A stretch of DNA of 25,465 bases from a virus. Both the position numbers and the translations under genes were made by a program. Under the pieces are notes generated by a model. The model saw only the letters and a program-made list of their open reading frames with translations. It did not search any database and was not told the origin of the DNA. The stretch is taken from positions 1 to 25,465 of IMG/VR virus record IMGVR_UViG_3300042673_000479; one strand, given 5' to 3'. Below are positions 2,701 to 22,327 of this stretch, one piece after another; the stretch's first letter is position 1, and each line of letters opens with the position of its first letter.

Positions 2701-2961
2701 TTACCGTTGTCCGATGCTCTGCAGGTACTCCTCGTGGTACAGCACCTCGCCCATGATTTGGGTCTCCGTGACGTTGCACTGTTGCACCATAGTGGGCATG
2801 TACTTGAGAAGCCCGCGCGGGTTGCGCTTTAGCCAGTTCTTTATGGTCTGCGGGCTGACCTTGAGGTTGCCAGCTGCCATGGTCAGGCTTCCGTAGTGCT
2901 TATTCAGGAACGCTTCCATGCTGGTCACTATCATGTAGTTTTCGTCAGAAGGGCAGGTCAT
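2701..2961 (-). CDS. Small helix-turn-helix protein, Cro-like
   Basis: An 86-residue protein (77 if the internal ATG at 2934 is used; the first ATG gives a 17-base overlap with the upstream gene). Residues 25-54 contain a helix-turn-helix: SLTMAAGNLKVSPQTIKNWL, then the basic segment KRNPRGLLKY. The scan helix (VSPQTIKNWLKR) resembles phage Cro/CII-type regulators and bacterial HTH DNA-binding proteins. The C-terminal 30 residues look helical and may dimerise. It lies directly before the replication initiator, so it may control the replication operon or assist initiation. There is no divergent partner repressor in the window, so a classic genetic switch is not shown. HTH call good; regulatory target unknown. 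Confidence 0.68.
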   Translation of the reverse strand: MTCPSDENYMIVTSMEAFLNKHYGSLTMAAGNLKVSPQTIKNWLKRNPRGLLKYMPTMVQQCNVTETQIMGEVLYHEEYLQSIGQR

Positions 2962-3295
2962 TGGGCGCTGGAGTTGACGGTGGTGCCATGCGGTTGGTGG
3001 TGCGTCCTGCGAGCGGCTTCTTGGCTGGTGCTGGAGCAGGTGCCTCCTCGGGCTTGCCTGCGTACTTCAGCTCGACAAAGTAGCGGCCATTCCACTCCCG
3101 ACTATTCAGCCAGCACTCGAGGGTAATCGGGTGCTCGGCCACCAGTGCGAGGGCTTCATCCACGTCGTCCTTCTTGAAGGTGACGGGGTAGATATTACTG
3201 CCTGCCTCGATGAGTACGTCGCACACGGTGAATCCGGAAGCGAAGGTCTTGGGCTCTTGCACCGCCTTCACGGTGCCGTTAATCGTTATTTTCAT
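2945..3295 (-). CDS. SSB-like OB-fold protein (DUF3127-like)
   Basis: A 116-residue protein from ATG 3295; the open frame further upstream is a shadow. Residues 1-80 form a short beta-rich domain (MKITINGTVKAVQEPKTFAS, with YPVTFKKDDVDEAL and LECWLNSREWNGRYFVELK later) that matches my recollection of DUF3127, an OB-fold family common in Bacteroidota phages. The hydrophilic Pro/Ala linker ends in NDLPF, like the acidic DDIPF-type tip by which bacterial SSB recruits partner proteins. I therefore infer single-stranded DNA binding at the phage replication fork. It follows a 93-residue acidic protein and precedes the HTH and initiator genes, in keeping with a replication cluster. DNA binding is not demonstrated by sequence alone. 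Confidence 0.7.
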   Translation of the reverse strand: MKITINGTVKAVQEPKTFASGFTVCDVLIEAGSNIYPVTFKKDDVDEALALVAEHPITLECWLNSREWNGRYFVELKYAGKPEEAPAPAPAKKPLAGRTTNRMAPPSTPAPNDLPF

Positions 3296-3560
3296 TAGTA
3301 AAAGATTTGATAAACTTTGCCATCTGTGTCTGTGTCCATCGGCCTCGTGAATCGGGCCGGTCGAGGTGCGCCAAGAGGCGCAGGTTGAGGTGGTGGTAGG
3401 TCTGGTCATCCATCGGCCCGTACATGATAGCGTCAAGGGTTGCCTCGTCGTCCCACAGGACCGTGCACAGCATAAGTGACTCGAGGCGAACGCGTCTCAC
3501 CTCGATGAGCGTGGTGCTGTCCAGCTCTGCCTCGTCGAAGAAGTCGTCAAGCTCGCTCAT
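3279..3560 (-). CDS. Hypothetical acidic protein, 93 aa
   Basis: A 93-residue protein starting at ATG 3560 inside the end of the upstream gene (14-base overlap) and ending 17 bases into the next gene. The N-terminus is strongly acidic (MSELDDFFDEAELD). The middle is helical and hydrophobic (RRVRLESLMLCTVLWDDEA) and the C-terminus is Asn-rich. I recognise no family, catalytic motif or membrane span. The chain of overlapping starts and stops argues for translation within the early operon. A small DNA-mimic or an adaptor is conceivable from the acidity but not supported further. Confidence 0.6.
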   Translation of the reverse strand: MSELDDFFDEAELDSTTLIEVRRVRLESLMLCTVLWDDEATLDAIMYGPMDDQTYHHLNLRLLAHLDRPDSRGRWTQTQMAKFIKSFTNENND

Positions 3561-3747
3561 CAGGATCGCCCAGTATTTCGTCCAGGATAGCCTCGACGTC
3601 GGTGGTCCACAGCTTGCTTTCGAGGTTGCGGATGCGTGCGTTTGCTTTTGCTAATCTCCACCGCAGGTCGATGTTGTTCACTAACAAATAACCGAGGACG
3701 AGGATGCCTGCGATCCACGCCCAAATCGCGTGCAGTTCAGTTATCAT
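3547..3747 (-). CDS. Small membrane-anchored coiled-coil protein, 66 aa
   Basis: A 66-residue protein. Residues about 8-25 (IWAWIAGILVLGYLLVNN) form one transmembrane helix. A charged heptad-like helix follows (about 29-46, RWRLAKANARIRNLESKLW), then an acidic tail ending LGDPDERA. The start ATG lies 11 bases inside the end of the methyltransferase gene. The pattern resembles small phage membrane peptides of unknown role. In the early region it could be an anti-host or superinfection-exclusion protein rather than a lysis protein, but nothing in the sequence decides this. Confidence 0.6.
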   Translation of the reverse strand: MITELHAIWAWIAGILVLGYLLVNNIDLRWRLAKANARIRNLESKLWTTDVEAILDEILGDPDERA

Positions 3748-4972
3748 GGGTCGTCTGTATTGCTTGAAAGATTTGGTAGGCCACCTGGGGCACTATGGCG
3801 TTTCCGTAGGCTTTGATTGACTCGGCTCGCCACTTTGGAAAGGTAATTCCGTCCAGTTCACGGGGAAGCCCATCATCTCCGCCACAAACCGGGGGTTGAG
3901 TTGGGAACTCGTCCCAGCTGGCAACACATCCAGCGTCCCCAACCGCCTCAAAACCCGACCTCCTTTGTCCAATTTCTTCGCTTGTTCCGTTGTCAACTGA
4001 CTGTCCCTGAACTCTTGCGCTGTGGGTGTCGGTAGCATCCCCAAAGATGCCTTTCCGCTCAACATCGATGCTGTCCCGTCTGCTCTGCGTTGTCCCTTCC
4101 AATCCCCCGCAATTGGTGTCGGTAGCATTCCATTTGCGGCTAATTGTTTCAACGGAACTTGTAGCGCGTCTCCGTGCTTCTCCTTTGCTCGTTCCCACGC
4201 CTCCGGGCTGCGAGGCGTGTTGTAGTCGGACCTCGTCGGCGTTGGCAGCATCCCGGCTTCTGCCAACTGGTTCAAATCTATGCTGTACTTCTTGCCGGTT
4301 GTGTGGCTCGTATTCTCTCCGTTCTCGTCGAGCTTTCGATTTGACATGTTCGCTAACGGCGTTGGAAGCAACCCGTAAACCACTTGACTGGCAAGTCCAT
4401 TGAATTTCGTCCCGTTCTTGTAGCCGTTGCGTTCCGCTCTCGCTCGCATCTCTTTTGGGTCTTCGCATCGTTCCGTTGCTGTCGGAGTGATGAGCAACCC
4501 ACCAAATCCGATCACGTCTGTGGGGTGCGCCAACACCCGCAGCTGGAATGAGGCCCGTCCAAACCTCGTACCCCATAGCTTCCAAGTCAGCGCACACCTC
4601 CTCGAAGACCATGCCTCCGTTCCAATTAAGCAGGCCGCGAACGTTTTCGCCCACAACGTAGGCCGGGGCAACCTCTGATATGATGCGACACATCTCGGGC
4701 CACAAGTGGCGCTCGTCGTCTTTCCCCAGTCGTTTGCCTGCGGAGCTGTAGGGCTGGCATGGGAATCCTCCCGTAAGGATGTCCACTCGTCCTCGCCATT
4801 CGGTGCCGTCAAATGTTTTGACATCATTGTACGTTTTTGCATTTGGAAAATGGTACTTCAACACACGCTGACAGAACGGGTCGCGCTCGCAGTGGAGCAC
4901 GTTGGTCCACCCCATCCACTCGGCGGCCAAATCGAAGCCACCTATGCCGCTAAATAGCGAGGCGTGGTTCAT
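3737..4972 (-). CDS. C5 cytosine-specific DNA methyltransferase
   Basis: A 411-residue protein. Motif I is SLFSGIGGFDLA (5-16), motif IV is GGFPCQPYS (68-76, catalytic C72), motif VI is ENVRGLL (109-115) and motif VIII is HRRDRIWWVA (151-160). The C-terminal motifs IX/X are in KWRAESIKAYGNAIVPQVAY (380-399). The enzyme would methylate cytosine C5, probably to protect phage DNA from host restriction. Its start overlaps the preceding stop as ATGA. Oddity: residues about 162-355, where the target-recognition domain should be, are a hydrophilic low-complexity stretch with recurring units such as VASNAVSEHV, DAANADEVRLQ and GDATDTHSARVQ. The same DNA read in +1 gives a better protein-like sequence. 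No restriction endonuclease lies nearby, so it looks like an orphan enzyme. Confidence 0.9.
   Translation of the reverse strand: MNHASLFSGIGGFDLAAEWMGWTNVLHCERDPFCQRVLKYHFPNAKTYNDVKTFDGTEWRGRVDILTGGFPCQPYSSAGKRLGKDDERHLWPEMCRIISEVAPAYVVGENVRGLLNWNGGMVFEEVCADLEAMGYEVWTGLIPAAGVGAPHRRDRIWWVAHHSDSNGTMRRPKRDASESGTQRLQERDEIQWTCQSSGLRVASNAVSEHVKSKARRERREYEPHNRQEVQHRFEPVGRSRDAANADEVRLQHASQPGGVGTSKGEARRRATSSVETISRKWNATDTNCGGLEGTTQSRRDSIDVERKGIFGDATDTHSARVQGQSVDNGTSEEIGQRRSGFEAVGDAGCVASWDEFPTQPPVCGGDDGLPRELDGITFPKWRAESIKAYGNAIVPQVAYQIFQAIQTTHDN
3793..4842 (-). CDS. Alternative +1-frame ORF overlapping the cytosine methyltransferase (LPTP-repeat protein)
   Basis: A 349-codon ORF wholly inside the methyltransferase gene, in the +1 frame. 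From about residue 84 it looks like a real protein: ALTWKLWGTRFGRASFQLRV, then repeats GLLITPTA (115), GLLPTPLA (157), GMLPTPTR (197), GMLPTPIA (238) and GMLPTPTA (268). Each LPTP unit from 157 on is preceded by an amphipathic segment such as DLNQLAEAG or PLKQLAANG. The C-terminus is LNPRFVAEMMGFPVNWTELPF. In a sampled repeat stretch (4141-4260) third-position G+C is about two thirds in this frame and about half in the methyltransferase frame. I recall LPTP/MGFPxxWT proteins annotated beside phage cytosine methyltransferases but cannot verify this. It may be a true overlapping gene, a relic, or a conserved shadow. The first roughly 50 residues look like a shadow, so the true start is uncertain. 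Confidence 0.35.
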   Translation of the reverse strand: MQKRTMMSKHLTAPNGEDEWTSLREDSHASPTAPQANDWGKTTSATCGPRCVASYQRLPRPTLWAKTFAACLIGTEAWSSRRCALTWKLWGTRFGRASFQLRVLAHPTDVIGFGGLLITPTATERCEDPKEMRARAERNGYKNGTKFNGLASQVVYGLLPTPLANMSNRKLDENGENTSHTTGKKYSIDLNQLAEAGMLPTPTRSDYNTPRSPEAWERAKEKHGDALQVPLKQLAANGMLPTPIAGDWKGQRRADGTASMLSGKASLGMLPTPTAQEFRDSQLTTEQAKKLDKGGRVLRRLGTLDVLPAGTSSQLNPRFVAEMMGFPVNWTELPFQSGEPSQSKPTETP

Positions 4973-8923: not shown

Positions 8924-9870
8924 GTGATTGTGTATTCCAAAACTAAACATAAACCACCGCTACCTGCGCCACCTGTTCCGGATGTATAGCCGTTCCGGCA
9001 ACCGCCCCCACCACCTCCGGCAGCGCCATATACACCGCCTGCGCCACCATTGCCGCCGTTTACTGCTAATCCACCACCACCACCACCACCACTGCTGCCG
9101 ACTGCTTTGGTTGATAGCGCCGCGATGCGCGGTGACCATGTCAAGCGGTTGGCGTGATTTGCCGTGCCTGCCCCGCCGTTACCACCGCCTGCCGCTCCCG
9201 CTGTGGCTGCTGTGTTTAGCGTGTTGCTGCTATTGCGCAATCTACTGCCTGTGCCGCCTGCTCCCTGAATATTGCCAGAGCTTACTCCTGAACCTGATGG
9301 AGCTCCTAAATTCATGTTAAAAGAGTACGATTGAAAATCATCTCCCTGGGTCCGTGCTGAATTTGAGCCACCTGAGCTGCTTGTTTCCGCCCGCGAGGAA
9401 CCGATAAATCCCCACGCAAAGTCCGGTTGACTGTCTGTGCTTAAATTACGTTCTACCGCACCGCTGCCGGATGTACGCGATCCGTTACCGCCCTTTGCGA
9501 CTACGTGTGTTCCAAATGAGGTGTCACCACCAGCGCTGCCAGTGCCTGCTGCTGTACTATTAACCGCTGTGCCTGTGCCACCCGCTCCGCCTGCACCTAC
9601 AGTCACCGTTTCCGTGCCACTTAATGATGCCGCCAAAATTTGGTTATAAACCACTGTCCCACCTGCACCACCTCCGCCCCCGGATGCCACTACACTGGTT
9701 GCCGCCGTTCCGCCAGATCCACCACCACCGCCAGCACCCACACATACCACCTCGACCATAACCAAACCCGTTGGCTTTGACCAGGTGTCGCCTGCCGTGT
9801 ATTCGCGCAGTGTCAGCGTCAGCGTTCCGCCACCTGCTGAGCCTTTGTTTACAAATTTGCCTACAGCCAT
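8920..9870 (-). CDS. Glycine-rich tail protein, probable receptor-binding adhesin
   Basis: A 316-residue protein starting TGATG-coupled to the large tail protein. The N-terminus (YTAGDTWSKPTGLVMVEVVC) matches the strand-plus-VxPxGV opening of the phage Gly-rich domain. Glycine blocks follow, such as GAGGGGGSGG, GAGGAGGTG, GGGNGGAGTANHANRLTW, SSGGGGGGGLAVNGGNGGAG and GAAGGGGGG, separated by variable Ser/Thr segments. It ends in GSGGLCLVLEYTIT. Family knowledge: T-even gp38 adhesins use glycine-rich polyglycine-II sandwiches to present variable receptor-binding loops. The position right after the fibre-like tail protein suggests a receptor-binding tip. Low-complexity sequence makes family assignment loose. 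Confidence 0.7.
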   Translation of the reverse strand: MAVGKFVNKGSAGGGTLTLTLREYTAGDTWSKPTGLVMVEVVCVGAGGGGGSGGTAATSVVASGGGGGAGGTVVYNQILAASLSGTETVTVGAGGAGGTGTAVNSTAAGTGSAGGDTSFGTHVVAKGGNGSRTSGSGAVERNLSTDSQPDFAWGFIGSSRAETSSSGGSNSARTQGDDFQSYSFNMNLGAPSGSGVSSGNIQGAGGTGSRLRNSSNTLNTAATAGAAGGGNGGAGTANHANRLTWSPRIAALSTKAVGSSGGGGGGGLAVNGGNGGAGGVYGAAGGGGGGCRNGYTSGTGGAGSGGLCLVLEYTIT

Positions 9871-12800
9871 CAGAGGTCGAAGATATTGAGAGTAACCGTC
9901 AAGGTGGATGCTGGCGTGGCGGTAGCGTAAATCTTTACAGCACCCGTGCTGCTGTCAGTGCGTGGCAGCACGCCCGCAGTGGCGGCTACGGACGCGCTGG
10001 CGTTGTCCGGGATGACGTCGACGATGCTGGTGGATAGGATTGCTGAATCGGAAATGCTGGCCTCGTAAAAGCCCGAAACCAGCGACCATGCACCTGTAGC
10101 GACGGTCTTTCCAGTCACCTGTGTGGCTTTGCGTGTAGCCCACGACAGTGTGCCGCTTGCGTTTGTCGACAGCACCTGCCCGCTTGTGCCGTCAGCGGTG
10201 GGCAGGGTGTAGGTGACATTTGCGGCGAGGGAGGCGGGTGCTTGAATGCCGACGTAGTTGGTGCCGTTGTTGGTGGCCTCGCCTAATCGTAGCACGCCGG
10301 CCGTAGTAGCCGTGCCGTCAATTTGGAGGGTGTTGGTGCTGGTATCGTATGTGAATGCTTCATCATACGTCATGTTCCCAGCACTGTCCTGGAACCAGAC
10401 GGACTTGAACCCACCGGCAGGAGGCGTAGCACCTGGGATACCTATGCTGCTGTAGGTGGCTTGTGTAGTTCCTGCCCAAACGCTGCCATCATAAACAAGC
10501 ACCTGACCTACCTGAGGCGGTTGATCCTTTACGTTTGCCAGGTTTTCAAGTGTTGTCGCTGGGTCAATGCGGACAAAAATCTCTCCTGTAGTGGAGTTCT
10601 GTTTTGTCACCCATCCAATAATCTGGGCGTAAGAATTGTACGCAGTAGGCAATGAACTCGTCCACGCTCCTGCCGTCGTCGCGCTGGCGTATAGCGTTGT
10701 GCCTACACTGAAACTATTGGTGTTCACTCCTGTAACGTACCCCACTGCTCGGGCATATCCTGACGCACCCGCTGCAATGTCTGCTGTGAGCACACCCAAA
10801 ATTCGGTGCGCATCCACACTTAACAATGAAGTAAATGCGGTGATCCGTAATTCGCCAGTTGATGCCTGACCGCCAAACTCGCGCACGATTGTGCCTTTGG
10901 TGATTGTACTTGCCGTGTTGTTGTATACGGGAATGTCTTTGGTGGCGAGATTGTTAAGGTTTGCAATATCCACTCCGTCGACTGTTCCTGTCACAACTAT
11001 GTTGCCGTCAACCTTAGCTTGCCCGATGACATGCAGGGCGCTGTCCGGTGCGGCGGTATTGATGCCTACCAGTCCCTGCTTGAGCTTGTCGGCGGTGGCG
11101 TACATAACCAGCTGCTGCGCGCCTGGTGTTTCGTTGTCTTGGAGGTAGACCTCGAAGATGCCGGGGCTGTTCTCGGACAGCGTCACCGTGCTGTTGCCGG
11201 AAGCGGAGGCCATGAGGATAGAGCTGGAGGTCAGCTCCACGCTCATGCCGTCGGTCTTGTCCTCTTCGTAGGTGATTTTGGTGCTGCCGTAGTCGTCGCC
11301 TACCGGCTGGAACGTCTTGTATATCAGCTCGAGCTTGCTGTCGATTGTCGACAGGCTTGCCCCTTGCAGGTTGCTGCTGATTTGCGCCTGTAGTGATTTG
11401 CCGCCGCCGTCGCTCGTGAGGTTTTGAAACCTTGGACCTTTACGGATGCGCTCATCTACTGCGACAGTGATGTCGCCGTCCGCGGCGTGCAACTCGTAAA
11501 GCTCAAGGTCTTGCAGTCGCTCCTTCGCGTAGTAGTTCAGTGTGTACGGCGCATACCTGCGGCCGTCGTAGGTGAAGGTGCTGTACATCTGTGGCACCGT
11601 TAGCTCCACCGGCAGATATGCCTGGCCACTCTGCCGGAGGCGTGGTGTATTTTGCCCGAAAAGAATTTCGCGCACCCCTAACTCATGCAAATCCTGCGTG
11701 CCTGTGGTGACGACGGAGCTGGTCCATGTCGTCGGATCGTCCCACGTGGTGCTGCCTGTCTTTACTTCAATACGTCCTATTGCAATGGTTTCAAATGCGT
11801 CCCCGAGGATGACGCGCTCCTGCTCCAGTACGGCAGTGTTGGCATTTGAGCTGGTCGCGCTATATGCCACGGCGTCCTCTGCTTCTCCGCTGTACTGTAG
11901 GATGACGTAGGTGGTGGGTTGAGCTGCGTTGGTTTGGTCGGTATTCACCCCGGCATCAAGTTCCAGCACATCAAAATAGACGGTAACCTCAAGGCCGGAA
12001 AGGTCGGCGGGCAGCGCAGGAAGGTCGAGCTGGAAGAATTGCGCGTCGCCTATGTTGTCGGTAGCCGGGTTCTGTGGCGCACCGCTAATCGTAAACCTGT
12101 CGGTCGCGTTGGTGGTCCAAGACGCAGTTTGCGGAGATGGGTACGTGTAAGGAATTGCCTGCCCGAATGGTGGGAGGTAGGCGGTAGCCGCTGTATTTGT
12201 AACCGTGTTCCTTAAATACCGGTTGCCACATTTGACTTTGAGCTTGATGCGGCGTTGGAAATGGTAGTTATTTTCGCCAGGGTAGTCACTGTCTTCATTC
12301 CACACGTTATGCAGCAGCAGCCGGAATACTTGGCCGTTGGCATAGTCGAATTCATTGAGCACCACGGTCGTCGTGCCGTGGTCGGCTGGTTCATAGCTGG
12401 CAACGAACGCCGGACCTGCGTTGTTATGTTCAAATAGGCGCCGCACTTTCTTCAGCGGCAGCTGGTACCCGTACTGCCAGCCGCGGAGCTTTTTGATACC
12501 GACGCCGATGTCGATGTTTGTGCTGACGTTTGAAGCACTCAAATAGTCGCCCTGCTTGTCGTATGCCAACGCGGAAAGCGTAGCACTTGCCACCTGCTTG
12601 CCTACAGGCGTAAACCAAAATGTACCGTTGGCCTGATAGATGCGCGCCCCCAGGCTGATAGCAAACTGTGCCAGGACAAAGGCAGTGTCATAGTAGTTTT
12701 TTTGGTCCGTCTCCTCCTCGTAATTGTAGAAGGTTGCATGCGTCACACGCAAGTTGCTGTAGTAGTCCCCCGTTGTGATGTTGCCAGGCGTGTAGCTTGC

Positions 12801-13343
12801 CACAGCCCGGAGGAATGGCGTGTCATTAGCCCATAGGGCAGTGGTGCGGAGCTTGGACAGCCCCAGCGTAAGGTGCTTAATAAATGTAAATCCAAACCCC
12901 GCGTTTGTGTATGGCAAGCCGTTGTCGTTGTACTGGATGTCCTTGAGGTTTGCCAAGTCGTCCGTCGCTCGGATGCGGTTCTCGATAGGATATGCCTGGT
13001 CTGCGAGCAAAAGCTGCTCGGCGAGTATGACGCCGCCCCAGTAGAGCGTATCTACACCGTCCGGATCGTACCTCACACTCACCAGGTAGCGCCCTTCGGG
13101 GCTTAGGATTAAGTCGCTAAGAAAGTCGCTGTGGTCACTGTTCTGCTCAATTAACGTGAACTCGAGAAAGCTGCCGATGATAGGCTCGTACCTCGTCTCG
13201 ACGTTCCCTTCATAATTCAGCACAAAGCCGTCGCCACCTATCGTGAAGGGAATGATGGCCCCCGTGTAGGTGTCGTCGTGGATGTTCACCTGGTATGTGA
13301 GTCCCAGGTTGTCGCTGAATTCGGACTGCAGACGTATTGCCAT
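9870..13343 (-). CDS. Large tail tip / fibre protein, 1157 aa
   Basis: A 1157-residue protein starting as TAATG with the tape measure stop. The N-terminal third is beta-rich and begins with a distal-tail-like domain (LGLTYQVNIHDD, IPFTIGGDGFVLNYEG, YWGGVILAEQLLL), as in tail tip proteins attached to the tail tube. The middle carries further beta domains, including a region with SALHVIGQAKVDGNIVVTGT typical of fibre stalks, and an NTASTITKGTIVRE to AGASGYARAVGYVTG module seen in many phage tail proteins. Near the C-terminus NVTYTLPTADGTSGQVLSTN is the classic tail-fibre repeat motif. It probably combines tail tip and fibre in one chain. No peptidase or lysozyme motif was seen. It is followed by the glycine-rich adhesin. 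Confidence 0.78.
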   Translation of the reverse strand: MAIRLQSEFSDNLGLTYQVNIHDDTYTGAIIPFTIGGDGFVLNYEGNVETRYEPIIGSFLEFTLIEQNSDHSDFLSDLILSPEGRYLVSVRYDPDGVDTLYWGGVILAEQLLLADQAYPIENRIRATDDLANLKDIQYNDNGLPYTNAGFGFTFIKHLTLGLSKLRTTALWANDTPFLRAVASYTPGNITTGDYYSNLRVTHATFYNYEEETDQKNYYDTAFVLAQFAISLGARIYQANGTFWFTPVGKQVASATLSALAYDKQGDYLSASNVSTNIDIGVGIKKLRGWQYGYQLPLKKVRRLFEHNNAGPAFVASYEPADHGTTTVVLNEFDYANGQVFRLLLHNVWNEDSDYPGENNYHFQRRIKLKVKCGNRYLRNTVTNTAATAYLPPFGQAIPYTYPSPQTASWTTNATDRFTISGAPQNPATDNIGDAQFFQLDLPALPADLSGLEVTVYFDVLELDAGVNTDQTNAAQPTTYVILQYSGEAEDAVAYSATSSNANTAVLEQERVILGDAFETIAIGRIEVKTGSTTWDDPTTWTSSVVTTGTQDLHELGVREILFGQNTPRLRQSGQAYLPVELTVPQMYSTFTYDGRRYAPYTLNYYAKERLQDLELYELHAADGDITVAVDERIRKGPRFQNLTSDGGGKSLQAQISSNLQGASLSTIDSKLELIYKTFQPVGDDYGSTKITYEEDKTDGMSVELTSSSILMASASGNSTVTLSENSPGIFEVYLQDNETPGAQQLVMYATADKLKQGLVGINTAAPDSALHVIGQAKVDGNIVVTGTVDGVDIANLNNLATKDIPVYNNTASTITKGTIVREFGGQASTGELRITAFTSLLSVDAHRILGVLTADIAAGASGYARAVGYVTGVNTNSFSVGTTLYASATTAGAWTSSLPTAYNSYAQIIGWVTKQNSTTGEIFVRIDPATTLENLANVKDQPPQVGQVLVYDGSVWAGTTQATYSSIGIPGATPPAGGFKSVWFQDSAGNMTYDEAFTYDTSTNTLQIDGTATTAGVLRLGEATNNGTNYVGIQAPASLAANVTYTLPTADGTSGQVLSTNASGTLSWATRKATQVTGKTVATGAWSLVSGFYEASISDSAILSTSIVDVIPDNASASVAATAGVLPRTDSSTGAVKIYATATPASTLTVTLNIFDL

Positions 13344-15625
13344 TAGTATTTGGTGCGGTTACGGTTAAACGTGGTGCGCTCATTGCTGATGACCAGGTCG
13401 CGCCCTTGCAGTCGGCCTGTGACGGTGACGTTGGCGTTGCTCTGCCCGGCTCCTGCCATCTGCAGGAACTCGCCCATGCGCTCAAACGGGATGATAGCCT
13501 CTTTGCCTGACTGGTTATCTCCGACCATAGCTAACATAGGACCGGTAGTTAGACCTCCCTGCGCGAAGGCCGGTACGCTGCCTCCTCCGGCGCTCTGTAA
13601 TGCTGTTTTCGCGTACGTTCCCAAAGCCACCAGAGCGATACCTGCGATAAGAGCGACTGCAGGGTTAAGGGTCTCAAGGGACTTGCGTATGCCTTTGATT
13701 GAGATACCTACGCCGATAGCAATTTCCCCAACTTGTACGGCAAGGTCGGCCAACGTGTTCAGCACCATGCGCCCCAAGCCTTCCATCCCTTTTCCGGTTG
13801 CCAGGGTTTGGCCCAGCATCTTGGAGAAGTTGATAGTCATGCTTTCCGCAGCCTGTTCGATAGCCTGCTCTACAGATTCACCAAAACTCTGCGCGGCCTC
13901 TTCAGCAGTCCTAAAACCTTCTGCAATGTCGCCCAGGTCTTGTGTAGTTCCTTGAAGCTCTTTATTGTTTAGAGCTGGAATAGCAATTTGTTGAGCTTCA
14001 ACACGAGGAGTGACTGTAGGCGCTCCTTGCTGCCCTTGCATGAGCGCCTTGAGTTCCTTCGCGCGCTCTACTTCGCCAAGCCGTTGGGCGGCAATGGCTG
14101 CATCGCGGTAGGCGTCTGCTGTCTGCTCGATACGCGTGTTGAGGTCGCCGGTGATTTTGTATTCCGCATCGATGTCCTTCAACCTATTCTGGAGGGTGTC
14201 CTCGTAGGTTTTGCTTTCTGATGTAGCTGTTAGAAGTGATTGAACATTCGTGTCAATACTTTCTGTATTCTCATCTTGTTTTTCCGTCAGCCTGCGCAAG
14301 GTTTCCGCGTCCTTTTGTCCTTGCAGCTGCTGCTGTATAGCCGTTTGCCGTTGCCGAGTCAAGCTGGCAATGTTGGCGCGTAGCTGCTTGTCCAGAGCGT
14401 TCAGAGAATCCGCGCTGCGTTGAACATCTTGCGGCACCTCCTTGCCAGCAGCAGCCCATGTAGCCACCGCCTTTGCGTTTGCCTGCACGAGGCGGTAATT
14501 TTCGCGCCATTGCGTATTCGCAGTTGCCAGCTCTTGGTCGATGAGCTGCAAGGCTTCGCGGCCTTGCTTGCCTGCTATCGTGCGATCGAAATCTTCCTTG
14601 GCCTTGCGCGCCTTGTCCGTCTCGCTCTTGTAGAGGACCATCGCGCCCACCAGCACGGCCACAGCAGCGGCTGCAGCGACGTAGGGGTTGGCGAGGATGG
14701 AAAGGTTGAGGCCAAGCTGCGCGGTCTTGGCCGCCAGGAGGGCGCCCTTTATGGTGGTGTAGGCGTTAATGAGGCCAGCCACTGCTATGAGGGTAGGGCC
14801 GAGGACGGCCAGCAGGCCGCCAATGACCAGCACTGTGGTCTTGGTCTCGTCGCTCCATCCTTTGATGCTGTCTACCACCTGACGCACGAAACCGACAAAC
14901 GGCTTGAGTGCGTCGTTGATGATAGCGCCGAAGTCCTCGGACAGGTTGCCTACCTCGTTAGCGAGCTGGGTATACGGGTCGACGTTGGCCGCTGCCTCCG
15001 CTGCTCCGCCGAATTGGGTCTCCAGCTCTTGCAGGATGATGGACTGCGCCCCGGCCACGTCGCCGCTTTCCGCAAGCGTGGTGATAAGTTCCTTTTGCTG
15101 CGCGGTGAACTGCACCCCGGCGCGGCCGAGGGCCGTCACACCTTTGATAGGGTCGTTCAGCGCCTTGCCTACCTGCACCGAGGCGCTCGTCAGGTCGGTG
15201 CCCAAACGGGTCGACAGGTTGAGGATGGCTACCTGCGCCTTGTCGAACTGCGTGCCGGTGACGTTGGTGAAGGTGAGCAGGTTGGCCGTGACCTCCTTGA
15301 GGATTTGGTCGTCGTCGTACAGGCTGATGCGCTGCAGGCCCGCGGCCATCTCCTCCAGCTGTGCCACGCTCCGCCCGGCCGCGCCTCCGGTCGACTGTAC
15401 GGCGGCCTCTACCTGGGCGATGGCCTTGGCACTGTCCACCGCGTTCTTTGTGGCGATAGCTCCGAAGGCGGCGATGGGTGCGGTGAGGCCGATGGACAGG
15501 GACTTGCCCAAGTCGTTCATCTTGCCCGCCGTGTCGCGCAGCCGTTTCGTGGCGCCGTCAAGAGCTTTGTCCAGCTCTTTCGTGTTGGCGCCAAATATGA
15601 TATTTAGGATTGCGTCTTTAGCCAT
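13343..15625 (-). CDS. Tail tape measure protein
   Basis: A 760-residue protein following the tail chaperone genes, the standard place for the tape measure. The N-terminal part (FGANTKELDKALDGATKRLR) and the Ala/Gln-rich helices through residue 250 match PhageMin_Tail/TP901-type tape measures (QVGKALNDPIKGVTALGRAG, VQFTAQQKELITTLAESGDV). Hydrophobic segments follow at about 265-290 (TTVLVIGGLLAVLGPTLIAV) and 311-330 (NPYVAAAAAVAVLVGAMVLY), then coiled-coil charged helices, and a C-terminal hydrophobic part ending in a short beta region. At 760 residues it predicts a tail of about 110-120 nm using about 0.15 nm per residue, an inference. It starts eight bases inside the preceding frame. Confidence 0.9.
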   Translation of the reverse strand: MAKDAILNIIFGANTKELDKALDGATKRLRDTAGKMNDLGKSLSIGLTAPIAAFGAIATKNAVDSAKAIAQVEAAVQSTGGAAGRSVAQLEEMAAGLQRISLYDDDQILKEVTANLLTFTNVTGTQFDKAQVAILNLSTRLGTDLTSASVQVGKALNDPIKGVTALGRAGVQFTAQQKELITTLAESGDVAGAQSIILQELETQFGGAAEAAANVDPYTQLANEVGNLSEDFGAIINDALKPFVGFVRQVVDSIKGWSDETKTTVLVIGGLLAVLGPTLIAVAGLINAYTTIKGALLAAKTAQLGLNLSILANPYVAAAAAVAVLVGAMVLYKSETDKARKAKEDFDRTIAGKQGREALQLIDQELATANTQWRENYRLVQANAKAVATWAAAGKEVPQDVQRSADSLNALDKQLRANIASLTRQRQTAIQQQLQGQKDAETLRRLTEKQDENTESIDTNVQSLLTATSESKTYEDTLQNRLKDIDAEYKITGDLNTRIEQTADAYRDAAIAAQRLGEVERAKELKALMQGQQGAPTVTPRVEAQQIAIPALNNKELQGTTQDLGDIAEGFRTAEEAAQSFGESVEQAIEQAAESMTINFSKMLGQTLATGKGMEGLGRMVLNTLADLAVQVGEIAIGVGISIKGIRKSLETLNPAVALIAGIALVALGTYAKTALQSAGGGSVPAFAQGGLTTGPMLAMVGDNQSGKEAIIPFERMGEFLQMAGAGQSNANVTVTGRLQGRDLVISNERTTFNRNRTKY

Positions 15626-19343: not shown

Positions 19344-19897
19344 GCGTAGACGCGGTAGGTGGACAGCAGTGCCTGCACGCCCATGGGTAACTCGGTGGCA
19401 ATGGTACCGGTCACAACCTGCTGCCGGTTCTCGTAGTAGTGGCCGCACAGCAGGCGCATAGCCTGCAGGATAGGTCCGGGCACCGTGCTGTGCCCTGCCG
19501 TCGTGTTGATGATGACCTGGTTGTAGCGCTCAAGGAATACGGCCGGAGGCGTGTAGAAGGCGATGCGCTGGGGCGATCCCACGAGGTCGGCATACCAGCG
19601 TGCGGTCGACAGTGTCTGCAGGACGTTGTCCACGTCGTAGAACTCCACCGACGAGATAGCCGTCACCGGCCCGGCCGGAAACTGGTTGTCCTCAAACGAG
19701 TCCATGTAGAAGGTCACCGTGCCCGAGCCGAACAGGCGGCCCGTGTATTCCTCGCACGCCTGGCGCGCCGAGGTGAGCAGGAAGCCGAGCGTCGTGTCGT
19801 CGTCGTTGCCGTCAATCCTCAAGTAATTCTTGAGGTTGGTGAGGCTGATGAAGTTCGTGTCGGTAGGCTCCGCCGCGCGGCTGTATCGCATAGTCAT
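19340..19897 (-). CDS. gp6-like head-tail connector
   Basis: A 185-residue protein. NFISLTNLKNYLRIDGNDDD, then TLGFLLTSARQACEEYTGR and LFGSGTVTFYMDSFEDNQFP, match the phage gp6-like (DUF3199-type) connector, with the signature Ser/Ala..ace-x-x-TGR helix and ISSVEFYDVDN strand pattern. The family binds the portal's lower face as a dodecameric ring to connect head and tail. It starts 66 bases after the capsid stop, separated by a terminator hairpin, so read-through or a local promoter must express it. Its stop overlaps the adaptor's ATG. Confidence 0.85.
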   Translation of the reverse strand: MTMRYSRAAEPTDTNFISLTNLKNYLRIDGNDDDTTLGFLLTSARQACEEYTGRLFGSGTVTFYMDSFEDNQFPAGPVTAISSVEFYDVDNVLQTLSTARWYADLVGSPQRIAFYTPPAVFLERYNQVIINTTAGHSTVPGPILQAMRLLCGHYYENRQQVVTGTIATELPMGVQALLSTYRVYA

Positions 19898-19913
19898 AGG
19901 TCAAAAGTAAGAA

Positions 19914-19938
19914 AGCCCGGGGGAGTGCCCCGGGCCTT
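19914..19938 (-). terminator. Intrinsic terminator after the capsid gene
   Basis: The minus strand reads a GGCCCGGGG stem, a five-base loop, CCCCGGGCTT, followed by T-rich TTCTTACTTTTG. The stem is at least eight perfect G/C pairs (19915-19922 with 19928-19935). Located between the major capsid protein and the connector, it would reduce downstream expression relative to capsid. Confidence 0.72.
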
Positions 19939-19963
19939 CTCTATGGTGTCAGCTCTGCAAGGA

Positions 19964-22327
19964 TTACGCGCCCACCGTGAACCGGACGTCGCCCGTGTGT
20001 GCGAAGTCGGCGTCGGCGTACATGTTGAGGATGAGGCGGGTGATGCCCGTCGCAGCCAAGGTGTACGGGTCGATAACGAGGTCGGCTGCTCCGCCGCCCC
20101 AGTATGCCACGTAGCAGTTCTCCATGTTCGCGATAACGATCGGAACGAGGTCGGCCTCATTATTGAGAGCCGTCGATGCCGTGGTGTTGGCATATACCTC
20201 GGAGTAGACATCGTAGGACGCGTCCGTGATGAGGCCAGCAGCTGCGAGCGACGTGCCGTATGCCTGATACCCGAAGATGGCGTTGTCCTGCATAATCGGA
20301 ATAGCGCCGCCGGTAACCGTCGGGGTGTAGCGTGCCGTAGCGAGCAGGCCGTGCGAAGTGATGAACGCCGTCGTGTTCGTCAAGGCGTTCGCGTTGCCGA
20401 GGGCTCCGATGAGGCCCGATGCCACCTGCGAGGTCAAGCCTGCCACCGTAGCGGCTGCCGTTTCGTTACGCTTCACGAACGTAGAAGCCGCAGCGGAGAT
20501 GACCTTCGTGAGGAACATCTCGTCAATTTGCGCGGCAGAAGCCCGTGCGAACTGGCGCTGAACCGTAGCATCGATACTTTGGTTCATAGCTGCCAGCAAC
20601 TCGTTGGTGATGTCGATACGCGAAGCCACACGCTGCGGAGCCAGCTGGCGTGCTGCGATAGCTGCTGCACCCGTTGCCGAGGCCGTTTCGTTGATGATGT
20701 CCGTGCCGTCGTTGAGGGAGGGCAGGTTGATGTTTCCAGCGAGGCCGCGCAGGACGTTGGCGCCTGCCTGCTCGAGGATAGGGGTCGGGACAAGCGCCTC
20801 GAGGACGTTCGTGTTGGACTGTCCGGGGACGTTCGTGCCGCCGATAGTCGAGGTGTTCCGGAGGATGAAGCCCGGGATCTGGGCCAAGCCGCGGACGCCT
20901 ACGCCTGCGTTCTTGAGGTCGGATGCTGCCTGCTGGCTCATCTCCGCCTCGAGGCCGGTCAAGCGGCCGGTCATCGATTCGCGGACGAGCTTGCTGATGG
21001 AGTAGCGCTGCTGGATTTTCTCCTGCTCGAGCACCTCCGGCTGCGGGGTTGCAGCAGAGAAGGCAGCACGCAATACCTGCGCCTCGGTCTTCTCGGCGCG
21101 CTCAATTTTCGCGTCGAGCGCCTCGATTTCATTGTGCAGGTTGTCGACGGCCGTCTCTTCGGTTTCGTTGAAAGACCGCTGCATCAGCTCGGCCGATTCG
21201 GTCAAGCTCTTCAGCTGGTTCAGCTTGGAGGCGCGCAGCGCCTTCATGTCGTTGAGGTTCATGTATGGAAGTGTAAAGGGTTTCTGGTCAAAGGTAGTAT
21301 TTGCCGAGATATTGGTATTCCGGCTTTGGTTTTCCTCGAGGTCGTCATCCGGGCTGTCGTCCGGCATGTCGTTGGGCATGTCGTTGGGTATGTCTTCGGA
21401 GACCTCCTCGGTGTAGTCGTCAATCATCGCCTTGATGTCGTCGAGTGATTCGATGATATCGTCGAGCAGGTCGTCGGTCTTCTCGTCGCGCTCCTGCACC
21501 TCCGTCGGCAGGAAGTTGATGCCGCGCGCCGCCATACGTGCGGCAACGGTAGTGGTGGGTGAGGCCGGGTACGTCACCGGGCTGACGTCGTACAGCTGGC
21601 CTACGCGGGTGATGGTACGCATGCTGCGGTCTTTGCTCCACTCGTCTTCATCAATGGTAAACGCAAAACTCGACTGTGTGATGTCGCCGCGCTTGATGAG
21701 CTTGTACAGGTCGCGCCCTTCGCTCGTGTCGGCGAGCATAGCACGGTAGTGGAGGCCGCGCTCGTCGATGGTCAGCTCGAGGGTGCCATTGGTCGTGCGC
21801 GCCAGCGGGACGCCAGCGTGGTTGATGAGCAGCCGGACGTCGTCCTCGGTGCGCCCGTTGAAGGCGCCGGGAGCTACGCGCTCCTGGAAGTAGCCAAGGT
21901 CGTAGCTGTCTCCGAACACCGAAGCGTAGCCGCTGATAATCATGTCCTCTGAAGCACGTACCTCCATGGTACGCACCTCCACGTTGGGGCCGTAGATGTT
22001 CCGCAGCTCTTGCTCGCGGTCGTTGTTGTTCTCTTGCATCTCTTCGACTTTTTTGGTCGCCCACGTGAGGCCCGCGTCGCCACCCCACAGCAGGTAGCTG
22101 ATGGTGCCGCAGGCCTCCGTGTCGTCCGGGTTGTAGTATGTCCTGGCGCGGGACAGGAAGCTGTACATGCGGACCGTCCGCTCGTGACTGATGGTCTCGC
22201 GGTTGGAAAGTATGCGGGCCGTCTCTTTCCCCACCGGCGTGGCGCAGCGTCCGTTCACGGCGTCGTTGAGTTCGATGCCGCGCCGTGCGTTGTCCGTCAC
22301 TGCCTGTGGGTAGTCGTTATACGGCAT
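19964..22327 (-). CDS. Fused prohead protease (S78) and HK97-type major capsid protein, 787 aa
   Basis: One continuous frame encodes three parts. Residues 1-95 form an extra domain (GRCATPVGKETARILSNRE, ERTVRMYSFLSRAR, ACGTISYLLWGG), which I recall as an N-terminal module on Bacteroidota phage proteases. Residues about 117-270 are an S78 prohead protease (SGYASVFGDSYDLG, RLLINHAG with H170, then GDITQSSFAF with S219/S220). Residues about 285-345 are an acidic PNDMPND-type linker. Residues 356-787 are a delta domain (helical 360-420) and the HK97 capsid fold (LVRESMTGRLTG, IPGFILRNTST and C-terminal NCYVAYWGGGAADLVIDPYT). MNLNDMKALRAS at 356 is a possible internal start for free capsid protein. 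The protease would cleave the fusion in prohead maturation. Confidence 0.88.
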   Translation of the reverse strand: MPYNDYPQAVTDNARRGIELNDAVNGRCATPVGKETARILSNRETISHERTVRMYSFLSRARTYYNPDDTEACGTISYLLWGGDAGLTWATKKVEEMQENNNDREQELRNIYGPNVEVRTMEVRASEDMIISGYASVFGDSYDLGYFQERVAPGAFNGRTEDDVRLLINHAGVPLARTTNGTLELTIDERGLHYRAMLADTSEGRDLYKLIKRGDITQSSFAFTIDEDEWSKDRSMRTITRVGQLYDVSPVTYPASPTTTVAARMAARGINFLPTEVQERDEKTDDLLDDIIESLDDIKAMIDDYTEEVSEDIPNDMPNDMPDDSPDDDLEENQSRNTNISANTTFDQKPFTLPYMNLNDMKALRASKLNQLKSLTESAELMQRSFNETEETAVDNLHNEIEALDAKIERAEKTEAQVLRAAFSAATPQPEVLEQEKIQQRYSISKLVRESMTGRLTGLEAEMSQQAASDLKNAGVGVRGLAQIPGFILRNTSTIGGTNVPGQSNTNVLEALVPTPILEQAGANVLRGLAGNINLPSLNDGTDIINETASATGAAAIAARQLAPQRVASRIDITNELLAAMNQSIDATVQRQFARASAAQIDEMFLTKVISAAASTFVKRNETAAATVAGLTSQVASGLIGALGNANALTNTTAFITSHGLLATARYTPTVTGGAIPIMQDNAIFGYQAYGTSLAAAGLITDASYDVYSEVYANTTASTALNNEADLVPIVIANMENCYVAYWGGGAADLVIDPYTLAATGITRLILNMYADADFAHTGDVRFTVGA
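21289..21296 (-). promoter_or_regulatory. Candidate -7 element before an internal capsid start
   Basis: TACCTTTG on the minus strand matches TAnnTTTG of Bacteroidota promoters and lies 27 bases upstream of ATG 21262, which begins MNLNDMKALRAS of the capsid domain. No TTTG is seen at the expected -33 position, so this may be a chance match. If real it would supply capsid protein separately from the protease fusion. Confidence 0.22.

Follow-up and report, generated by a model that had tools for sequence, protein, structure and literature searches.

A phage C5-cytosine methyltransferase gene with a nested +1 frame that probably encodes its target recognition part as a row of exchangeable cassettes

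One stretch of phage DNA appears to encode a two-polypeptide C5-cytosine DNA methyltransferase of the M.EcoHK31I type, in which a gene nested in the +1 frame would provide the recognition domain(s) and motif IX, a reading that we hold with high confidence on the strength of sequence comparison. The nested frame very probably tells the methylase which DNA sequences to mark. The stretch analyzed (hereafter the window) comprises 25,465 bases of an IMG/VR virus and carries terminase, portal, capsid/protease, tail, and replication genes on its minus strand. On the same strand, frame A (3737..4972) encodes the 411-aa large polypeptide of a C5-cytosine methyltransferase, with motifs I–VIII and X. Frame B (3793..4842, minus strand), the proposed recognition subunit, lies wholly inside it in +1 relative to A. 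A sequence-only reading of this DNA had pointed out the 349-codon ORF in +1 within the methyltransferase gene; it is indeed there, on the minus strand (which that reading left unstated) and with an ATG start.

The protein search of both frames that had been proposed for this region places A in the C5-cytosine DNA methyltransferase family (Pfam PF00145, 2.3e-46, residues 1-224; also phrog_363, 1e-75, and TIGR00675, 1e-40) and gives for B a match to phrog_1008 ('DNA methyltransferase', 5.8e-24), with the best stretch pairing B residues 19-214 with profile positions 37-214. A search of NCBIfam with B gave no match, and DUF429 (0.017, below cut-off) was discarded. Translation and the PF00145 match together reveal PCQ (motif IV; 4754..4762, minus strand, used as an anchor at codon index 70), ENV, RxR, and motif X in frame A. 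Motif X (YGNAIVPQVA; 3779..3808, minus strand) is identified by translation and by frame-A selection after the stop of B. The motif IX pattern is absent from frame A of the window and present there only in frame +1. As the middle of the gene is, moreover, selected for B, A does not combine its catalytic domain with a recognition domain and a motif IX of its own. The motif IX-like segment of B, SQLNPRFVAEMMGFPVNWTELPF (3838..3906, minus strand), contains the columns L315, P317, V320, M323, M324, G325, F326, and P327, invariant among 64 sequences, and is followed by 14 further residues. It is under frame-B selection, and we read it as motif IX because it lies just where motif IX is expected and because hhalign links it to gp70 of Mycobacterium phage ShiLan; the expected place follows the order of C5-methyltransferase motifs given in passages of PMC3404938. 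The compact C-terminus reported earlier, MMGFPVNWTELPF, is present, near the end of B but 14 residues short of it.

B is a real gene, far beyond a chance ORF, and selection keeps both frames open. Viral homologues were gathered by B (best 80 of 142) and by the catalytic part of A alone (best 80 of at least 599). With identical A ORFs merged and two loci lacking a catalytic match (L050 and L076) dropped, there are 134 distinct A ORFs, including the window, all from best-match lists and with common ancestry among the loci. Scoring B from A codon 60 to the A C-terminal match, we find both frames open in 130 of these 134 loci, and in 63 of the 65 picked by the A catalytic part only; the third frame is closed in 133, that is, all but one. 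The four exceptions are L014, L102, L052, and L152. A broken B beside an intact methylase, the case that the sequence-only reading had named as speaking against B, is absent from the 134 loci: L052 and L152 are scored as having A open and B ending short of the C-terminal match, yet their B is long and open. We discount these two because scoring runs up to the A C-terminal match, their A ORFs are unusually long, and motif IX lies in their open B. In L014, a TAA (3000-3002) in the methylase frame adjoins PCQ, with B open, and reflects either a small insertion or a sequence error. Neither frame of L102 is open as scored, its frames being shifted: a frame change at about 2950-4000 puts motif IX in the methylase frame and motif X in the third frame, by a natural frameshift or an assembly error.

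The strength of this selection was assessed by resampling synonymous codons from pooled codon usage in 120 loci, in which motif IX was required inside an open A ORF. Fourteen of the 134 loci fall outside this set. For L014 and L102, the reason is a broken A; for L010, L024, and L047, the estimated start of A falls beyond the contig or the open frame; and for L070, L090, L116, L124, L129, L131, L132, L137, and L156, the pattern is unmatched. Over A codons 51-160, B contains 3 stops against 424.5 expected, and the third frame 747 against 770.4. Over the cassettes and motif IX, A contains none against 629.6 expected (third frame 1239 against 1221), a zero that is partly by construction, since the set was chosen for an open A with motif IX; the 134-locus count is less conditioned. 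Where openness of B was not a criterion, B is likewise free of stops: 0 against 119.5 expected in 67 bacterial loci, 0 against 24.4 in 16 named phage and plasmid loci, and 0 against 40.6 in 25 further viral loci. Four Bacteroides genome contigs (L224, L227, L228, and L244) have A broken within the methylase only by TGA, two or three each, with B open. These TGAs lie partly at conserved tryptophans (AAE*MGW, SR*RQ), so that TGA may be read as Trp, or the gene may be decaying; the stops of L227 and L228 are identical.

The beginning of B also bears the mark of selection. In the window, the first ATG after the last B-frame stop lies at 4840..4842 (minus strand), with further in-frame ATGs at 4825-4827 and 4822-4824. 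Within the first 60 codons, the last B-frame stop is found at index 58 or lower in 120 of 120 loci, 84 of which have it at 37-58; the next ATG falls at index 43-58 in 102 of 120. Where PCQ stands at index 70 (118 loci), an ATG or GTG is present at A codon index 41-61 past this stop in all 118, compared with a mean of 68.6 and a maximum of 81 loci in 100 synonymous resamples; for ATG alone, 117 loci were observed versus a mean of 61.0 and a maximum of 79. Codon choice favors the creation of a +1 ATG by 58 to 1 at index 47, 29 to 14 at index 48, and 18 to 3 at index 49. Elsewhere, the share of ATG-making choices is.29 (codons 5-29),.42 (60-99), and.31 (100-159); just upstream it is also high, with.53 of 19 (codons 30-39) and.60 of 40 (codons 40-46). 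A Shine-Dalgarno-like triplet 5-16 bases before the first ATG is seen in 25 of the 120 loci and not in the other 95, at least two of which lack upstream sequence. The bacterial relatives (best 80 of 128) are, by the titles of their records, mostly from Bacteroidota, whose genes often have no Shine-Dalgarno sequence.

Which frame is selected where can be read from substitution rates between related loci, compared in disjoint pairs and broken down by A codon position 1/2/3 (A position 1 being B position 3). The catalytic part (59 pairs) gives.088/.048/.195, the cassettes (55 usable of 59 pairs).294/.145/.123, motif IX (59 pairs).209/.061/.085, and the stretch after the stop of B (54 usable of 59 pairs).096/.056/.351. 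Substitutions thus fall mostly at A position 3 in the catalytic part and past the stop of B, and at B position 3 through the cassettes and motif IX. Because A position 1 is B position 3 and the rates switch by region, labor is divided between the frames: selection acts on A in the catalytic part and near motif X, and on B from the cassettes through motif IX. Bacterial loci (29 pairs) give.162/.095/.303 in the catalytic part and then.390/.227/.228 in the middle, and another phage group (12 pairs).084/.045/.174 and then.165/.043/.047. In one zone, A codons 88-143 (4541..4708, minus strand), third positions of A change slowly, at.093-.196 versus.338 at codons 64-71 and.297 at codons 152-159, so that both frames seem to matter there; third positions at codons 48-63 are also slow (.198 and.147). 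The dual coding suggested earlier therefore stands in that both frames are open and selected, with the frames dividing the regions between them and a zone of joint constraint near A codons 88-143. The third-position G+C content, said to be higher in the alternative frame on a 120-base sample, is so over B residues 151-310 as well (B 0.619, A 0.491, third frame 0.547).

A codon-position pattern of this kind would look identical if a single chain were made by two ribosomal frameshifts, passing from the catalytic part in A to the cassettes and motif IX in B and back to motif X in A, and single-chain relatives such as ShiLan gp70 do exist. We nevertheless consider this route unlikely, since it leaves unexplained why A is open through the cassettes, why B is open through the catalytic part, and why internal start codons are in excess.

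Homology supports the reading of B as a recognition subunit. Besides the window B, phrog_1008 matches the B frames of Escherichia phage K1H (ORF28, 1.4e-55) and Xanthomonas phage PhiXhv-28 (1.5e-34), B of a Porphyromonas phage (3e-12, N-terminal part only), gp75 of Mycobacterium phage Camperdownii (3e-93), and residues 196-388 of ShiLan gp70 (profile 127-323, 2e-61). The matches of the window B and of ShiLan gp70 overlap in the cassette part of the profile, and hhalign of B profiles with ShiLan gp70 gives probabilities of 93.3 and 97.0. The motif IX link between B and gp70 rests on these hhalign alignments and on position. Together, the profile overlap and hhalign indicate that the cassette and motif IX part of B corresponds to the recognition part of an ordinary methylase, written in another frame. 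Of the roles proposed by the sequence-only reading, a specificity subunit is the best reading, and an unrelated, separate early protein finds no support. Its suggestion of an older gene in the alternative frame suits only the cassettes and motif IX; the N-terminal part of B, in contrast, overprints the catalytic domain.

The same evidence bears on the view that A is complete by itself, with its own recognition domain, and that B is a separate overlapping protein acting as a regulator or in anti-restriction. In its favor, the predicted recognition domain of M.EcoHK31I is placed in the large subunit in passages of PMC3404938. We regard this view as quite improbable, since the middle of A is selected for frame B and not for A, the frame-shifted L102 is the sole locus among 134 with the motif IX pattern in frame A, and B shares homology with the recognition part of single-chain methylases. 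That B is open merely through the codon usage or composition of the methylase has next to no chance of being right: long chance ORFs do occur in the window, some opposite structural genes, but the resampled stop counts, a third frame that behaves as expected, and substitutions that track B codon positions all argue against it. Two such ORFs on the plus strand, 19439-21448 (669 aa, GTG start) and 14420-15607 (395 aa, TTG start), lie opposite head protease/capsid or tape measure genes and are probably shadow ORFs. Elsewhere in the window, a 1157-aa ORF (9870-13343, minus strand) that has no PHROG match is located between tape measure and tail-fibre-assembly-like genes.

AlphaFold models of B alone are poor, with mean pLDDT values of 56.7 for the window (64-row alignment) and 56.8 for the single-cassette L045 (40 rows). 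Residues 41-100 are the best placed in the L045 model (block means 68-80). The window model reaches 73-85 at residues 51-70 and 91-100 and in short helices near 129-138, 213-236, and 317-323. Searched against PDB sequences, B found none at E <= 10, as a single sequence or as a profile, and Foldseek with the L045 model found no PDB match at E <= 0.001. With low pLDDT and no such match, a recognition-domain fold of B is putative. Points against the preferred two-polypeptide reading are this low pLDDT and the missing PDB matches, the 95 of 120 loci in which a Shine-Dalgarno-like triplet is not seen, the breaks of A in L014, L102, and the four Bacteroides loci, and the recognition-domain assignment in passages of PMC3404938.

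The recognition part of B is built from tandem cassettes. In the window, frame B reads on the minus strand through cassette 1 (4375..4497; limits hand-counted), cassette 2 (GLLPTPLANM; 4255..4374), cassette 3 (GMLPTPTRSD; 4132..4254), cassette 4 (GMLPTPIAGDWKGQ; 4042..4131), and cassette 5 (GMLPTPTAQEFRDS; 3916..4041, end approximate). The [LM]LPTP heads start at B residues 158, 198, 239, and 269; the preceding G residues, at 157, 197, 238, and 268, have the spacing of 40, 41, and 30 described earlier, and to these heads we add the diverged LLITPT head of cassette 1 near B residue 116. In total, 342 cassettes with a median of 39 aa were found in 120 loci, with one, two, three, four, five, and six cassettes in 9, 38, 44, 22, 5, and 2 loci, respectively. 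At 70% identity, they form 120 clusters. Of the 27 clusters that occur in at least three loci, 18 are found at two or more positions in the array; the cluster of cassette 4 is the commonest of all, in 39 of 120 loci. The second LPTP cassette of L111 contains an insertion of about 100 aa through which the nested frame is still open.

Cassettes are shuffled between phages. Locus pairs with a common cassette (80%) have a median catalytic-part divergence of.291, versus.306 for all pairs, and 32 of 65 locus pairs that differ by less than 6% in the catalytic part have no common cassette. Over A residues 1-165, L002 and the window agree at 98% identity, yet L002 has two cassettes, only the first of which resembles the window cassette at the same place. 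The cassettes are, moreover, conserved as B sequence: in same-length pairs with DNA identity of.65-.95, amino acid identity is.858 in B,.492 in A, and.518 in the third frame, and B identity exceeds A identity in 1127 of 1127 pairs. These pairs were chosen by DNA identity, our first comparison having been redone because choosing by B identity favors B. Such rows of one to six shuffled cassettes may correspond to the tandem modules of multispecific enzymes, and each cassette would act as a target recognition module that reads its own target.

We therefore picture a methylase whose two chains would share one DNA stretch. Frame A would yield the large polypeptide, with the catalytic core (motifs I–VIII) and motif X joined by a stretch of about 190 residues that stays open although its own sequence is under little selection. 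Translation from an internal +1 start, mostly near A codon 43-58, would yield B, predicted to consist of an N-terminal part overprinting the catalytic domain, tandem LPTP-headed cassettes of about 40 aa, and motif IX. B would bind A as a heterodimer and provide the small DNA-reading domain. Phages swap cassettes as units open in both frames and could thereby change or add methylation targets against host restriction. Both the several targets per enzyme and the anti-restriction role are suggested by analogy with the tandem-domain enzymes of Bacillus phages (passages of PMC8936443).

We lean towards a broader proposal, in which this is a general architecture of phage C5-methyltransferases: specificity would reside in a mosaic array of exchangeable cassettes read only in the nested +1 frame, phages such as N15 and epsilon15 would carry an unannotated second subunit, and cassette number and order would set combinatorial methylation. 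As the cassettes would be read in +1 inside the catalytic gene, each would have to lack stops in two frames. If true, phages would widely share a long nested pair of genes, each member of which has a clear function. This would also explain the hydrophilic, low-complexity recognition region of such phage methylases as a wrong-frame reading, and would mean that annotation often misses one of two subunits. The cassettes would form a mosaic set from which DNA targets could be read, and the location of the M.EcoHK31I recognition domain would merit re-examination.

The nested layout extends well beyond the window. Among bacterial-genome loci picked by the B profile (best 80 of 128, no census), 67 of 80 are nested in +1 with the wider motif IX pattern and 65 of 80 with the narrower one; five are split or interrupted. 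The pattern was widened because its first form missed most ShiLan-type loci, and counts shift accordingly: in the ShiLan set (n=77), one count gave 26 nested +1, 13 single, 16 split, 1 with a same-frame stop, and 21 none, and a later one 25 nested +1, 12 single, 13 split, and 27 none. Of 19 named phage and plasmid loci, hand-picked from match lists, the pattern identifies 16 as nested; ShiLan is single and Camperdownii split, and an Enterobacter plasmid locus (L325) was missed by the pattern. Read in translation, the layout is found in K1H, Bas70, N15, epsilon15, PhiXhv-28, and Paenibacillus phage vB_PlaS-1/A; for N15 and epsilon15 taken singly, the reading is by translation. GenBank records annotate both frames in K1H and PhiXhv-28; A only is annotated in N15, where it is gene 58, in epsilon15, and in the BASEL-collection phage Bas70, and B only in Escherichia phage ST20, Klebsiella phage VLCpiM12a, Salmonella phage W5_chr3, and the Porphyromonas phage. 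ST20 (L246, 1640-2293), with three cassettes as counted by eye, has its nested frame listed as a hypothetical protein and its methylase frame unannotated. The CC-licensed PMC literature searched (listings, and passages of PMC3404938, PMC3439449, PMC5582158, PMC9409062, PMC11855218, PMC12707154, and PMC8936443), outside of which most subscription papers lie, yielded no report of phage cytosine methylases with a second frame nested in the gene, and an earlier description is possible.

Three architectures can be told apart among the relatives: a single chain, a partial overlap with motif X in the small part (Camperdownii), and the nested form of the window. In a catalytic-domain tree of 98 chosen rows, architectures cluster (8 changes versus a shuffled mean of 30.5), giving no direction of change. 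This tree was made by a quick method that leaves 42 of 91 inner branches open, and the ancestral architecture is not readable from it. L189 is labeled there as single, probably in error (it is nested under the narrower pattern), and the four TGA-interrupted Bacteroides loci as split. ShiLan gp70 runs through the catalytic domain, the LPTP cassettes, and motifs IX and X in the order of the window, but all in one frame. ORF29/ORF28 of Escherichia phage K1H (C-specific methylase/Mte8-like) form the same nested pair with both genes annotated; they differ in that one WPTP cassette is seen, and the record names both genes with no functional link between them.

The multispecific C5-methyltransferases of Bacillus phages are single chains in a single frame. 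Their tandem recognition domains recognize several target sequences (passages of PMC8936443). The window differs in having its tandem modules in a nested frame, where several specificities may reside. M.EcoHK31I, too, has its small gene within the large one, read in a different frame. This enzyme (YGGCCR) has motifs I–VIII and X in its large polypeptide and motif IX in its small one (passages of PMC3404938). As reading frames, A with motifs I–VIII and X and B with motif IX are distributed alike; unlike it, as compared by description, the window has its recognition region selected in the small frame, as a variable row of cassettes. M.AquI (CYCGRG) is likewise a two-polypeptide enzyme, its break lying in the variable region that separates motifs VIII and IX (passages of PMC3404938). 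Motif X, however, is in the small subunit of M.AquI and in frame A of the window; Camperdownii gp76/gp75 resembles M.AquI in having motif X in the small part, with genes that overlap only partly. A split methylase thus has precedents in M.EcoHK31I and M.AquI, and what we regard as new here is a split that is nested, cassette-built, mosaic, and widespread.
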